64,000 nucleotides of DNA, taken from the NCBI GenBank assembly GCA_937890395.1, contig CALACK010000063.1, forward strand, positions 1 through 64,000. The letters run 5' to 3'. The DNA comes from an uncultured Acidimicrobiaceae bacterium. Its GTDB lineage: Bacteria > Actinomycetota > Acidimicrobiia > Acidimicrobiales > Ilumatobacteraceae. Positions 35,184 through 40,148 of this stretch are shown one piece after another. How positions within the stretch are numbered: the stretch's first letter is position 1; each line of letters begins with the position of its first letter. Under the pieces are notes generated by a model. The model was not told where the DNA came from, did no database searches, and saw nothing but the letters and a program-made list of their open reading frames with translations. The position numbers and the translations under genes were made by a program.

Positions 35184-36368
35184 ATGAGTAAAGCGAAATT
35201 CGAGCGCGTCAAGCCACACGTAAACATCGGAACGATGGGTCACATCGACCATGGCAAAACAACACTTACTGCAGCGATCTCAAAGACACTCGCAGGCAAA
35301 GGTCTTGCCGAGTACACACCTTTCGATCAAATCGACAAGGCACCAGAAGAAAAAGCTCGTGGTATTACGATCTCGATCGCTCACATTGAGTACAACACCG
35401 AGAAGCGGCACTACGCACACGTTGACATGCCAGGTCACGCTGACTACATCAAGAACATGATCACCGGTGCCGCTCAGGTAGACGGGGCAATCTTGGTAGT
35501 AGCCGCAACTGACGGACCAATGCCACAAACCCGTGAGCACGTTCTTCTCGCCCGCCAAGTTGGTGTGCCTTACATCGTGGTTGCTCTTAACAAATCAGAC
35601 ATGGTTGATGACGAAGACATGTTGCAACTCGTTGAAGAAGAAGTTCGTGACTTGCTCACCTCTTACGAGTTCGATGGCAAGAATTGCCCAGTCGTTCGCG
35701 TCTCGGCTCTCAAAGCCCTCGAAGGCGATGCAGCGTGGCAAGAAAAGATCATGGAGCTGATGACTGCTTGTGATGATTCAATCCCAGAGCCAAAGCGTGA
35801 ACTTGATAAGCCTTTCTTGATGCCAATTGAAGACGTGTTTACGATCACTGGTCGTGGAACAGTAGTAACGGGCAAAGTTGAGCAAGGCAAAGTTCACACC
35901 GGCGACGAAATTGAAATCGTTGGACTCCGTGACACACAAAAGACTGTCTGCACCGGAGTAGAAATGTTCCATAAGTTGCTCGACGAAGGTCAAGCAGGCG
36001 ACAACATAGGTGCTCTTCTTCGTGGAACTAAAAAAGAAGATGTTGAGCGCGGTCAGGTTCTATGTGCGCCAGGTTCAATTACTCCGCACACAAATTTTGA
36101 AGGTCAGGTTTATGTATTGAAGAAAGAAGAAGGCGGACGTCATAAGCCTTTCTTTAATAACTACCGACCTCAGTTCTTCTTTCGAACAACTGACGTAACT
36201 GGCACTGTTGAACTTCCAAAGGGAACAGAAATGGTTATGCCTGGCGACAACGTAACAATGACTGTTGAACTCGGCAAGGCAATCGCCATGGTTGAAGGTC
36301 TTCGATTCGCAATTCGCGAAGGTGGCCGCACAGTGGGTGCTGGTCGCGTAACGAAGATTCTCAAGTAG
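35184..36368 (+). CDS. tuf: Elongation factor Tu
   Basis: 394 aa, the usual length. It has [20 protein letters not shown], switch [45 protein letters not shown] and the C-terminal [20 protein letters not shown]-Tu-GTP delivers aminoacyl-tRNA to the A site. A GGGAGA-type ribosome site precedes the ATG. It lies in the str operon before rpsJ (25 nt), so translation factors and S10 are probably on one mRNA. Confidence 0.98.
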
Positions 36369-36393
36369 ATCGTTTTAGAACCGGTTCATCCTG

Positions 36394-36708
36394 ATGGCAC
36401 AAAGCATCCGAATCCGCCTCAAGGCGTTCGATCACCAAAACATTGACGAATCTGCAAAGAAGATCGTTGAGACTGTGACTCGCACGAATGCGACGGTGCG
36501 TGGACCGATTCCATTACCTACCGACAAGCATCGTTTCACAGTTATTCGTGGCCCACACGTTGACAAAGACTCGCGTGAACATTTTGAGATGCGTATTCAC
36601 AAACGCTTGATTGACATTGTTGACCCAAACGCCAAGACAATTGACAGTCTTCAACGTTTAGAGCTTCCTGCTGGCGTTGACATCGAAATCAAAATCCAAA
36701 ACTCTTGA
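36394..36708 (+). CDS. rpsJ: 30S ribosomal protein S10
   Basis: 104 aa. [20 protein letters not shown] at the N-terminus, the loop [29 protein letters not shown], and [11 protein letters not shown] at the end are all standard S10 features. It packs in the 30S head and can also serve in NusB-S10 antitermination complexes. In most bacteria rplC follows directly; here a repeat and two non-ribosomal genes come first. Confidence 0.97.
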
Positions 36709-36738
36709 CAACAACACTGGGTTTAGTTTTGGGTCTAA

Positions 36739-36777
36739 TTTCTAGTTCTAGTTTCTAGTTCTAGTTTCTAGATCTAG
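36739..36777 (+). repeat. Three-copy 13-nt tandem repeat, CTAG-rich
   Basis: TTTCTAGTTCTAG occurs perfectly at 36739-36751 and 36752-36764 and with one change (TTTCTAGATCTAG) at 36765-36777. Each unit carries two CTAG sites, giving six in 39 nt. It fills the spacer between rpsJ and the methyltransferase gene. Confidence 0.88.
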
Positions 36778-36789
36778 TTTTTAATTCAG

Positions 36790-37911
36790 ATGAAATGCAT
36801 CTATTGCGAGAGCAAAAATCTGGTCAGAGAGCCTTCGTTCTCTGACTTTCGCACGATAACTTCAGACGTTAAACCTTGGCGTCGTGGTTTGAACATCGCT
36901 ATTTGCAAAGATTGCGGGTTTCCGCAGGCCGAAGTAAATGATGATTGGCAGAAATCTGCATCAGAAATTTATAGCGATTACGCATCGTATTATCAGACTA
37001 GCGACAACGACCAAACGGTGTTCATCGATGGTGCTGCCTCGGGTCGCGGTGATCTGTTTGTTGATTCAGTAGTTCAAACAAGCCAAACCAAACAGGGTGG
37101 TGCAGTTCTTGATTTTGGTTGTGGCGCAGGCACGTTGCTTTGGTCATTTGCAAAACTGCGAAGTGACTTCAATCTTTTTGGTTTTGATCTCGATGATCGT
37201 GAATTGAAAAAACTTTCAGCAATACCAAATTTCAACGAACTTCTTGTTGGTGAACTTGATAAGAATTTAAAATTCGACTTGATTTCGATGTCGCATTCGC
37301 TTGAACATCTCGTTTCGCCGATTGAGACTATGAAATTACTTGGTGCAATGTTGAATGAAAACGGTCACCTCGTTATTGCGGTTCCGGATTGTTCGAAAGA
37401 CCCGTTTAAGTTGCTGATCGCTGACCATTGTTCGCATTTTTCAGTACCGACACTCACGCTATTTCTTGAGCGAGCTGGCTTTGAAGTGGTACGAATCGAG
37501 TCTCGAATTGAAACCCGTGAATGTTGGGCTGTTTGTAAACCTTCCAAAACGGCGACGACCTCGATTGGCGCGAACCCTAATACGGTTTGGGTTGGAGAAT
37601 CAGTCCGTTGGTTGAATGAAGTGAAGAATCACGCTAGTTCGCTTGCAAAATCGAAGTCTTTTGGCATTTTTGGGACTTCGATCAACGCTCTGTGGCTCTT
37701 CGGTGAACTTGAACTAGATGTCAAGTTTTTTGTTGATGAAGACCCGTCTCGAGTTGGCAAAAAGCTATACGGAAGACCCGTGATTGAACCGAGCGAAGTT
37801 ATGCCCGGCTCAACTGTTTATTTGCCTTTTATTACAACTCTTGCCGAGAAAATCGCGATCAGACTAAACAATCGGAATATCACGTGGGCTGTGCCACCTA
37901 AAAGTGCGTAA
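36790..37911 (+). CDS. Zinc-finger class I methyltransferase with C-terminal Rossmann-like domain
   Basis: 373 aa. An N-terminal C-x2-C pair (MKCIYCESKN) and a second one (ICKDCGFPQ) probably hold zinc. A SAM-binding domain follows with AVLDFGCGAGTLLWSFA, LFGFDLDD and LISMSHSLEHLV. The last third (GIFGTSINALWLFGELEL, then FFVDEDPSRVGKKLYGRPVI) looks like the C-terminal domain of sugar C-methyltransferases (Methyltransf_13/14 layout). That suggests methylation of a nucleotide sugar rather than of the ribosome. The location between rpsJ and rplC is unusual. Confidence 0.75.
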   Translation: MKCIYCESKNLVREPSFSDFRTITSDVKPWRRGLNIAICKDCGFPQAEVNDDWQKSASEIYSDYASYYQTSDNDQTVFIDGAASGRGDLFVDSVVQTSQTKQGGAVLDFGCGAGTLLWSFAKLRSDFNLFGFDLDDRELKKLSAIPNFNELLVGELDKNLKFDLISMSHSLEHLVSPIETMKLLGAMLNENGHLVIAVPDCSKDPFKLLIADHCSHFSVPTLTLFLERAGFEVVRIESRIETRECWAVCKPSKTATTSIGANPNTVWVGESVRWLNEVKNHASSLAKSKSFGIFGTSINALWLFGELELDVKFFVDEDPSRVGKKLYGRPVIEPSEVMPGSTVYLPFITTLAEKIAIRLNNRNITWAVPPKSA

Positions 37912-37974
37912 GAATTCTTTAAGACTTTATTGGTTGGGCAAACCTTTGCGTCTAATTAACGATAGAAACTATTT

Positions 37975-39198
37975 ATGAGCGATTACACGCAAACTGATTC
38001 ATCTTCGATGCCTGAGCACAGAGGTCAGGGCTCATCTGAGTTGCCGCCGCCTTCGTTGTCGCAATTCAACGATCGCCAGCTCTCTTCGCAACACAATTCT
38101 TCTGGTCCGAGACGAGGTCGCACAATTTTTGGGATCGCAGTTATCGCTGGTTTGTTTGGTTTAATCGGTGGCATCGTAGGCGCATATGTTGAGCGAGAGA
38201 CAAATTTAAGAGAATCAAATTCGACCGAAACTGTCACCCAAGTTACTTCAGCGCCAATTGTTGTCGCATCTGGCAGCAACAATATGGCTGACTCATTAAT
38301 TTTGTCAGTTGCAACGCGACTCGCCAACAGTGTTGTCACAGTTATCTCGACTTTGGGTGAGGTCGGTGTCGGTGGTCGTTCGGTCGGTACTGGGGTTGTG
38401 CTCACTTCAAATGGTGAGATTTTGACAAACGCGCACGTTGTTAAAAGTGCAATTTCAGTGGTTGTGCGTTTCGCTGGAGAGACCGAACCGCGCGTTGCAA
38501 AGATCTTGGCGACTGATGTTGGCAACGATCTTGCATTAATAAAAGTAGAGGCAACTGGTTTAGTTGCCGCAACTTTTGCCAAACCTGGCAGTGTGAAAAT
38601 CGGTGATGCTGTAATCGCGATTGGCTACGCACTTGCACTAGATGGTGGCCCTACGGTCACCTCAGGAATAGTTTCGGCGATGAAGCGCACAATCGAGACA
38701 GAGACTGGTGCTCTTAACTCTTTGATTCAAACCGATGCGGCGATTTCTTCGGGCAATTCGGGTGGGCCGTTAGTTAACTTACAAGGTGAAGTAGTTGGTA
38801 TAAATACTGCTGTCGCGCGTGGCGATTCAGAGTCGGCCGCGACCAACATCGGATTTTCTATTTCAGTGGATGAAGTCTTAATTGTGATTGAGCAACTTCG
38901 TGATCAGGCAAACGGAGTTGAACGCCGTGAGGGCTTTTTGGGTGTTGGCTTAACAGGCCGTGAGGACGGCGGGCAAGGCGCAATTATCACAGATGTTCGA
39001 GCGGGGTCACCTGCCGATGGCGCCGGAATTGTCGTCAACGACATCGTGCTGTCGGTAGATGGCGAACCAATCGACGGGCAGGCTGGCCTTGTAGCGGCTA
39101 TTCGCGATGCGGTTCCTGGTCAGAAAGTCAAAATTGAAATTTCACGAGATGGTCAAAGAATGACCTTCGAAGCCACCTTGGCCGCCCGAACGAATTAA
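37975..39198 (+). CDS. HtrA/DegP-like membrane-anchored serine protease with PDZ domain
   Basis: 407 aa. A cytoplasmic Pro/Ser/Gln-rich arm (residues 1-48) is followed by one membrane helix at about 50-71 (TIFGIAVIAGLFGLIGGIVG). The trypsin-like domain has triad His154 (TNAHVV), Asp185 (GNDLALI) and Ser262 (SSGNSGGPL). A PDZ domain covers about residues 315-400 (FLGVGLTGRE, then VRAGSPADGAGIVVNDIVLSVDG). Members degrade or refold damaged envelope proteins outside the membrane. It follows the methyltransferase by 63 nt and is separated from rplC by a 278-nt spacer, so it probably ends a transcript. Confidence 0.92.
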   Translation: MSDYTQTDSSSMPEHRGQGSSELPPPSLSQFNDRQLSSQHNSSGPRRGRTIFGIAVIAGLFGLIGGIVGAYVERETNLRESNSTETVTQVTSAPIVVASGSNNMADSLILSVATRLANSVVTVISTLGEVGVGGRSVGTGVVLTSNGEILTNAHVVKSAISVVVRFAGETEPRVAKILATDVGNDLALIKVEATGLVAATFAKPGSVKIGDAVIAIGYALALDGGPTVTSGIVSAMKRTIETETGALNSLIQTDAAISSGNSGGPLVNLQGEVVGINTAVARGDSESAATNIGFSISVDEVLIVIEQLRDQANGVERREGFLGVGLTGREDGGQGAIITDVRAGSPADGAGIVVNDIVLSVDGEPIDGQAGLVAAIRDAVPGQKVKIEISRDGQRMTFEATLAARTN

Positions 39199-39476
39199 CT
39201 TGTTAACAAGCCCGAAAATCTAGCAATTTTTGTCATTTGTAGTTTGGGGACCAGATTTTGCGGGGATAGAGTAAACACTTCGTTCGTGGCCTTGGTTTTG
39301 CCAAGCCTCAAACGGAGAGATCAATTCAAAAAATTGATGTCTGTGTGCGCCCGTGTTATTTGCGAGTACCTCACAGCGAAAACTATAAAAGTGCTCCGCA
39401 GGCTTTGGCCGCGCGGAGCATTTGTGCGAATACACGAATTATTTTATTAAACATTTCGAGAAAAGGTTTTGGCCTC
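39199..39476 (+). promoter_or_regulatory. Spacer and probable rplC leader with hairpin
   Basis: No gene is seen in these 278 nt. A perfect 8-bp stem is formed by TGCTCCGC (39392-39399) and GCGGAGCA (39413-39420), followed by TTTG and AT-rich sequence. It could be a terminator for the upstream gene or an attenuator of the S10-operon remainder, where L4 control is known in other bacteria. TTGCGA (39360) and TATAAA (39384), spaced by 18 nt, resemble a promoter, but its start point would fall within the hairpin, so only one reading can be right. Confidence 0.45.
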
Positions 39477-40148
39477 ATGGCACAAAAAGCGATCGTCGGC
39501 GAAAAAGTCGGCATGACACAAGTATGGAGTGACGACCAACGCGTCGTGCCCGTCACCGTGTTAAGAATTGAGCCAGCTCGAATTGTCCAGGTAAAAACTG
39601 GCGCAACCGACGGTTACACCGCATTGCAAGTTACGTACGGGCAGAAAGATCCAAAAAAACTCAATAAAGCAGAAGCGGGTCATTTCGCACCTAAGAGTGG
39701 TGCGCGTAATGTTGCCGCAGGTCGTCGTTTGATTGAATTACGTCTTGATTCTGTAGATGGTTTTGAAGTCGGCCAAGAAATCAAGGTTGACACTCTGATT
39801 GTCGGCGACCGCGTCGACGTAACTGCAGTTAGTCGTGGTAAAGGTTTTGCCGGAACGATGAAGCGTCACAACTTCAGCGGTCAAGGCGCGAGTCACGGTA
39901 ACCACAAACACCATCGCACACCAGGCTCAATCGGTTCTTGCACATTTCCTGGTCGAGTGTTTAAAGGTTTGCGAATGTCAGGTCACATGGGTCACGAGCA
40001 AGTGACAACTCTCAATCTTGAAGTTGTTCAAGCAGATCTTGAAAGAAATCTGTTGCTGGTTAAAGGTTCTGTTCCCGGCCCAAACGGTGGTGTAGTAATT
40101 ATCCGCAACGCTGTCAAGGCTCCGCTTAGCCAAGGGGCCAAGGAGTAG
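39477..40148 (+). CDS. rplC: 50S ribosomal protein L3
   Basis: 223 aa from ATG 39477; the frame stays open upstream to 39345 but without L3 sequence. It has AIVGEKVGMTQVWSDDQRVV, SRGKGFAGTMKRHNFSGQGASHG (the loop that reaches the peptidyl-transferase centre, including the Gln methylated in some bacteria) and GRVFKGLRMSGHMGHEQVT. L3 is an early 50S assembly protein. It leads a tightly packed run of ribosomal genes; rplD follows after 2 nt. Confidence 0.97.
   Translation: MAQKAIVGEKVGMTQVWSDDQRVVPVTVLRIEPARIVQVKTGATDGYTALQVTYGQKDPKKLNKAEAGHFAPKSGARNVAAGRRLIELRLDSVDGFEVGQEIKVDTLIVGDRVDVTAVSRGKGFAGTMKRHNFSGQGASHGNHKHHRTPGSIGSCTFPGRVFKGLRMSGHMGHEQVTTLNLEVVQADLERNLLLVKGSVPGPNGGVVIIRNAVKAPLSQGAKE

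Follow-up and report, generated by a model that had tools for sequence, protein, structure and literature searches.

The window analysed in this study is a 64,000-nt stretch representing one contig of a draft genome (2.17 Mb, 219 contigs); its host belongs to the family Ilumatobacteraceae, order Acidimicrobiales and class Acidimicrobiia, and these are the taxa behind all counts of family, order and class given below. The gene order in the window is fusA, tuf, rpsJ, a methyltransferase gene, an HtrA-type protease gene, rplC and rplD, with rplB, rpsS, rplV and rpsC among the next ORFs. The tuf ORF (EF-Tu; 35184..36368, + strand; 717.8 bits for NCBIfam EF-Tu, cut-off 522.4) ends 25 bp 5' of rpsJ (S10; 36394..36708, + strand; NF001861, 162.5 bits, cut-off 85), and rplC (L3; 39477..40148, + strand; TIGR03625, 274.4 bits) is followed by rplD (L4; 40151..40771, + strand; TIGR03953, 236 bits, cut-off 130.1); the identities of fusA, tuf, rplD, rplB, rpsS, rplV and rpsC all scored above the NCBIfam cut-off. 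S10 gene order is commonly regarded as nearly fixed, and the original prediction that two non-ribosomal genes split rpsJ from rplC was confirmed, as both ORFs in the interval (36790-37911 and 37975-39198) are non-ribosomal and co-directional.

The first inserted gene (36790..37911, + strand) encodes a SAM-dependent methyltransferase (Pfam Methyltransf_23, E 1.4e-21) with general SAM-methyltransferase domains and, by eye, two N-terminal CxxC pairs. Sugar C-methyltransferases combine a zinc-binding N-domain, a SAM domain and a C-terminal domain; for the window protein, the Pfam zinc-binding and C-terminal C-methyltransferase domains were not listed at E<=5, a listing in which the HMMER filters discard most matches above 0.1. 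The expectation of a zinc-finger, sugar-type enzyme held for the methyltransferase domains; the sugar type is not shown, since the Pfam listing at that threshold contained neither a sugar nor a zinc domain. The predicted fold had a mean pLDDT of 35 and hence was unused. Of 200 family genomes searched at E<=1e-15, 8 contained the methyltransferase: 7 from among the 23 sampled genomes of the genus and one other; it adjoins rpsJ or HtrA in the 7 genus carriers, and six further genus genomes carry HtrA alone at this place, without the methyltransferase. Its divergence tracks that of rplC within the genus, and the marker tree, read without a statistical test of the tree, suggests from sequence that the gene was inherited in the genus with several losses. 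A viral origin was considered and rejected, as one scan of viral contigs confirmed no relative. The repeat anticipated ahead of the inserted genes is real: the spacer 5' of the methyltransferase holds a 13-bp tandem repeat of TCTAGTTTCTAGT (36734..36787; TRF, 3.6 copies), which is the sole such site in the genome at <=2 mismatches and is degenerate in close relatives.

The second inserted gene (37975..39198, + strand) encodes an HtrA-type serine protease with one PDZ domain, in agreement with the expected HtrA-like protease (Trypsin_2, 106.6 bits; PDZ_2, 61.3 bits), and with a hydrophobic N-terminal stretch seen by eye. Its His and Asp residues match the corresponding ones of a DegP-like PDB chain; at the serine position that chain carries Ala, and the window protein has GNSGGP there. 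The protein thus has the Trypsin_2 domain with a His-Asp-Ser triad and the PDZ domain that characterize the HtrA/Do family. HtrA/DegP proteases including Mycobacterium PepD (Rv0983, 1y8t) likewise consist of a trypsin-like domain and one PDZ domain; the window protein differs from them in scoring below the listed NCBIfam HtrA cut-offs (TIGR02037, 213 bits against 416.2) and in its site beside the S10 genes. HtrA lies inside the interval in 20 of the 23 fetched family loci that hold rpsJ and rplC (the window, 18 of 19 loci in one set and 1 of 3 in another), being absent from the family loci L059, L101 and L102 as well as from L145, and tblastn did not detect it in the order loci fetched from other families. 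Two adjacent HtrA-like genes occupy the interval in one locus (L067:20-2162). Additionally, a GATAGAAA or GGTAGAAAT element located ~5-12 nt 5' of the htrA start in the window (37950-37977) and in the genus members L035, L036, L038, L041 and L075 has a sequence like the -10 box of a leaderless mRNA.

Surveying the interval in related genomes showed that the split is lineage-wide and not peculiar to the window genome. Within the host family, rplC was detected in 166 and rpsJ in 134 of 200 genomes; both were found in 115, and the 93 used (22 were dropped with the genes on different contigs) gave rpsJ-rplC gaps from 302 to 27,253 bp with a median of 3100 bp. The gap was >=1.4 kb in 91 of these 93 genomes and <500 bp only in G109 and G033. 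Of 118 order genomes, 110 had both genes, and 95 of these were used after dropping 14 with the genes on different contigs and one with the genes on opposite strands; 54 had a gap of <500 bp, 41 a gap of >=900 bp, and none fell between. In 27 of the 49 order families with both genes found, one or more genomes had a gap of >=900 bp, and in G304 rpsJ and rplC lie ~544 kb apart on opposite strands of one contig. In loci L175-L219, 45 in all and chiefly from Streptomyces and other actinomycetes, with L210 titled Acidimicrobiia, the gap was only -16 to 40 bp. The origin of the window in a 219-contig draft could be taken to suggest that the gap is a mis-assembly or a binning chimera; however, the order rpsJ, methyltransferase, HtrA was found again in other assemblies of the genus, and large rpsJ-rplC intervals occur in three single-contig family genomes (9425 bp in G012, 7920 bp in G019 and ~5.8 kb in G038). 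Assembly error, against which the original prediction was to be checked, is therefore refuted for the arrangement and has a negligible probability, and read mapping could still change details of the window contig.

The genes found in the interval differ widely among loci. According to Pfam, they include NeuB and GNAT genes (L053), ABC-transporter genes (L061, and L055 on the strand opposite to rplC), a short-chain dehydrogenase (L086), a zinc alcohol dehydrogenase (L095), and an enoyl-CoA hydratase with a HAD hydrolase (L067, the HAD gene on the strand opposite to rplC); a TetR regulator (L063), PhyH (L069), TauE (L096) and a molybdopterin dehydrogenase (L097) are all encoded on the strand opposite to rplC. 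An S15 peptidase gene lies 5' of rplC in a genome where rpsJ was undetected (L062). Because simple ORF calling misread frames in GC-rich loci, genes were named only on a Pfam match, and 3 of the 20 scanned ORFs had no family. The NeuB and GNAT acetyltransferase genes, of the nonulosonate-synthesis type, stand between rpsJ and HtrA in another genus (L053:1741-3310). The methyltransferase and HtrA of the window consequently look like two of many tenants of the interval, and the tenants on the strand opposite to rplC argue against a single transcript through it.

The 278-bp spacer between HtrA and rplC contains a two-hairpin RNA preceded by a promoter-like pair. A hairpin-bearing spacer after the inserted genes had been predicted, and its hairpin proved to belong to a conserved two-hairpin RNA at 39327..39431 (+ strand; cmsearch 88.6 bits, the window being one of the 29 model sequences). 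The RNA consists of a P1/P2 hairpin with conserved G-CC...GG-ACC, followed by a GUGCUCCGC/GCGGAGCAU hairpin, and in the genus alignment of the spacer before rplC this block is, by eye, more conserved than the HtrA end. Both hairpins are present across the family and order with length changes that are not multiples of three, which makes a coding role for the leader unlikely. Upstream of rplC, its frame stays open across the leader to 39345 (window 39345-39476), and a conserved rplC extension is unlikely because the open-frame lengths vary among relatives. An extra hairpin in the window (39320-39341; GAUCAAUU...AAUUGAUG) extends into the 5' edge of P1 and might form in competition with it.

In the RNAalifold analysis of the 29 sequences, 11 of 20 pairs were changed on both sides; 96.7% of cells were paired, compared with 35-48% in slid control alignments, and none of 500 shuffles equalled the real alignment in a single one of the five measures. 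Aligning 33 sequences outside the model by sequence only gave the same two hairpins, with 16 of 20 pairs changed on both sides, 0 of 500 shuffles reaching any measure and slid controls again far lower; the rows of this set (A5) were found via the covariance model, so that their choice leans to the model. The window leader itself folds moderately better than shuffles (z -1.9 and -2.5). The conserved secondary structure with covariation that is sought in an r-leader is thus present, and the element before rplC is almost certainly a structured RNA. Rfam 15 returned no match at the leader in 18 sources (the window at E<=5, 7 loci at E<=3 and 10 loci at E<=1). The second hairpin is followed by no long U-run, and a terminator scan of 36350-39600 listed none in the leader. 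Mimicry of rRNA by the leader was also looked for in two 23S loci, in which the hairpin-1 model with filters off gave a best score of 10.6 bits (minus strand, E 0.29) and no convincing look-alike; more distant mimicry may exist.

Searching 197 class genomes with the covariance model gave 104 genomes at E<=0.01 and 98 at E<=1e-5; class carriers were counted at the latter threshold, excluding six genomes with weak matches (E 2e-4 to 0.0075). Within the order, 77 of the 79 genomes sampled were carriers, as were 21 of 118 genomes from the rest of the class. Among rplC loci with enough upstream sequence, the RNA was found in 67 of 74; the full model missed L091, L100, L107, L109, L112, L116 and L117 and was weak in L071 and L114. 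Hairpin 1 alone was found in L091, L100, L109 and L112, all four of which helped build the hairpin-1 model, and L107, with a 378-bp rpsJ-rplC gap, matched neither the full nor the hairpin-1 model. Across the 197 class genomes the hairpin-1 model matched 62 at E<=0.001, none additional to the full model. The RNA was present in 32 of the 35 loci from named records (L140-L174), and in the three without it (L171, L173 and L174) rpsJ touches or overlaps rplC.

The position of the RNA was tested with 46 best matches, one per genome, from the 77 order carriers, leaving secondary matches out; two lacked coordinates, and in all 44 others the match lies 11-163 nt 5' of rplC. In other orders, 13 of 13 fetched strong matches are directly 5' of rplC. 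The best matches therefore occupy a consistent place upstream of one r-protein operon, as expected for an r-leader. Second, weaker matches lie elsewhere in some genomes (the best in G286, E 1.5e-5, far from rplC), and weak matches in L212 and L214 were rejected as far from rplC. The fetched sequence around the weak class match L133 showed no fusA, tuf, rpsJ, rplC or rplD nearby. Outside the class, 16 of 221 phylum genomes had weak matches only (best E 1.8e-4), and six of these 16, fetched as one 2.6-3.0 kb sequence each, contained no fusA, tuf, rpsJ, rplC or rplD match. One MAG record titled Bifidobacterium breve (L165) has an Acidimicrobiia-like rplC region with the leader, and its label looks wrong. 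Among the titles and abstracts listed by full-text searches of an open-access library, none reported this rplC leader or this rpsJ-rplC split. Overall, the element before rplC is a candidate RNA regulator, strongly supported, at the head of a large r-protein operon, and it had no Rfam match in the sources scanned.

A promoter-like pair, TTGGGG - 17 nt - TAGAGT (39244..39272, + strand), ends 54 nt before the leader in the window. On its own this pair is not significant, as 23% of shuffles were as good; a stricter promoter scan did not list it, and in a consensus scan of 36350-39600 promoter- and terminator-like sites were no more numerous than in shuffles. A similar pair is found in other loci. 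Over 67 loci, which are related and of which one (L152) was read one base off, the best sigma70-like score upstream of the leader averaged 8.3 versus 5.1 for shuffles (Wilcoxon p 9e-10); the pair ends a median of 41 nt 5' of the leader, and the form TTGGNN-N16-19-TANNNT occurs in 33 of the 67.

Gene spacing changes together with the leader. Loci with the leader have a short tuf-rpsJ gap (median 22 bp, n=64, range 2-119) and an rpsJ-rplC gap of >=174 bp (n=76). Loci without it have a median tuf-rpsJ gap of 341 bp (n=23) and an rpsJ-rplC gap of <100 bp in 50 of 51 cases, the exception being the 378 bp of L107; a short tuf-rpsJ gap despite an absent leader was seen in L171 (-1 bp), L210 (16 bp) and L174 (31 bp). 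The four hairpin-1-only loci have rpsJ-rplC gaps of 176-353 bp. This comparison leaves aside tuf-rpsJ gaps >3 kb and uses leader labels assigned by hand; its loci are related and its sets overlap in part (e.g., L141 and L035), so that the counts are not independent events. The leader was also read in many fetched order loci with a gap <500 bp, and all but two (49 and 53 bp) of the 54 order genomes with such gaps have >=179 bp between the genes. The leader is therefore independent of the inserts, as the gap stays at >=179 bp and the leader is present in insert-free loci.

This two-state spacing pattern is the core of the proposed explanation, in which the boundary between operons, formerly at tuf|rpsJ, now lies at rpsJ|rplC and a new leader heads the operon, an explanation that is likely as a whole. 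We infer from the spacing that rpsJ, close behind tuf, would be read with the fusA-tuf unit as its tail. The S10 operon would then start at rplC from its own putative sigma70-type promoter, with a ~200-nt 5' leader containing the two-hairpin RNA; judged from sequence, a separate transcription unit very probably begins at rplC. The leader is predicted, with reasonable though not high confidence, to mediate r-protein feedback by sensing a free ribosomal protein and repressing the rplC operon. The best guess for this ligand is L4, a choice by analogy that is offered tentatively and at somewhat less than even chances, because, as argued in the available text of PMC7247131, the ligand of a multi-gene operon is best predicted from r-proteins with an established ligand role in other leaders, and L4 (uL4) feedback is established as controlling the E. 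coli S10 operon (available text of PMC10931766). Since rpsJ and rplC would need no common transcript, the interval from rpsJ to the rplC promoter would tolerate insertions, and tenants would accumulate. The inserted genes had been expected to separate control of rpsJ from the rest: separate control is supported by sequence, and the promoter-like pair and leader, found before rplC with or without inserted genes, are likelier than the inserts as its cause.

The original prediction also considered that the arrangement could tie envelope stress to ribosome synthesis, which could be put more widely as HtrA (and the methyltransferase) sharing a transcript with rpsJ or rplC, letting envelope stress or growth rate adjust both. 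The presence of HtrA in nearly all family loci and its co-directional placement in the window are more constant than random tenancy would give, and they keep a weaker form of this idea alive. However, HtrA is missing from the three family loci and from L145 named above as well as from the order loci searched outside the family; the other tenants are unrelated to it, vary by genus and are in several cases on the opposite strand, and the promoter-like pair and leader intervene between HtrA and rplC. The variation among the tenants, together with the opposite orientation of several of them, led to this coupling being set aside as the main reading; it is considered improbable, and no link to envelope stress was found. 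A less remote but still unlikely alternative concerns the RNA itself, which could instead be a site of RNase processing, of pausing or of antitermination, or a leader that answers to a different signal. The lack of an rRNA mimic in the two 23S loci would fit such a role, as would the indication in the available text of PMC7247131 that, among the cis-acting RNAs that regulate r-proteins, some may have no r-protein as their ligand. Against it, the strong matches stand at rplC in every case checked, as r-leaders do at their own operons, and feedback by uL4 on the S10 operon has an established example in E. coli (PMC10931766, in the portion available).

The predicted r-protein leader resembles two known systems in part. 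The E. coli S10 leader precedes rpsJ. As described in the accessible part of PMC10931766, it too is a structured RNA before S10-operon genes, with L4 encoded in the controlled operon; the RNA of this study differs in standing before rplC, in having no terminator in the leader and in having no Rfam match, so that neither the position upstream of rpsJ nor the intrinsic attenuator of the E. coli type was found. An L4 leader candidate in Archaeoglobi also precedes rplC, rplD, rplW and rplB; it is archaeal, is rated borderline in the text seen of PMC7247131, and is likened here by gene context and not by structure. For the invaded junction, the nearest precedent appears to be the inter-operon insertions of PMC8046335, where, in the text searched, unrelated genes in small groups enter the spaces between operons and fuller separation may ensue. 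The same invasion pattern is seen here, including the separation of rpsJ and rplC by >500 kb in G304. In the searched text of PMC8046335 the named str|S10 insertions lie between the two operons, whereas here the invaded junction follows rpsJ, as if the boundary had moved; that text describes insertions in other classes and does not treat Actinobacteria.

Combined, the split and its spread, the conserved RNA with its position and covariation, and the spacing rule, all read from sequence, make it fairly probable that the S10 control point was relocated at the level of the class, where a new promoter and an undescribed leader would have freed rpsJ to the str operon and opened the junction. One junction has been broken repeatedly across the class, and the candidate cause, a second control point, is also present where the junction is intact. 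The resulting natural series of leaderless and tight, leader-bearing and adjacent, and leader-bearing and invaded loci could serve to test whether regulatory uncoupling precedes the loss of gene order, and the leader offers conserved nucleotides suited to binding tests. As a minor observation, many draft contigs (L053, L063, L081, L099 and others) start within the 3' end of tuf, just 5' of rpsJ; a second near-identical tuf copy breaking the assemblies would explain these contig starts.
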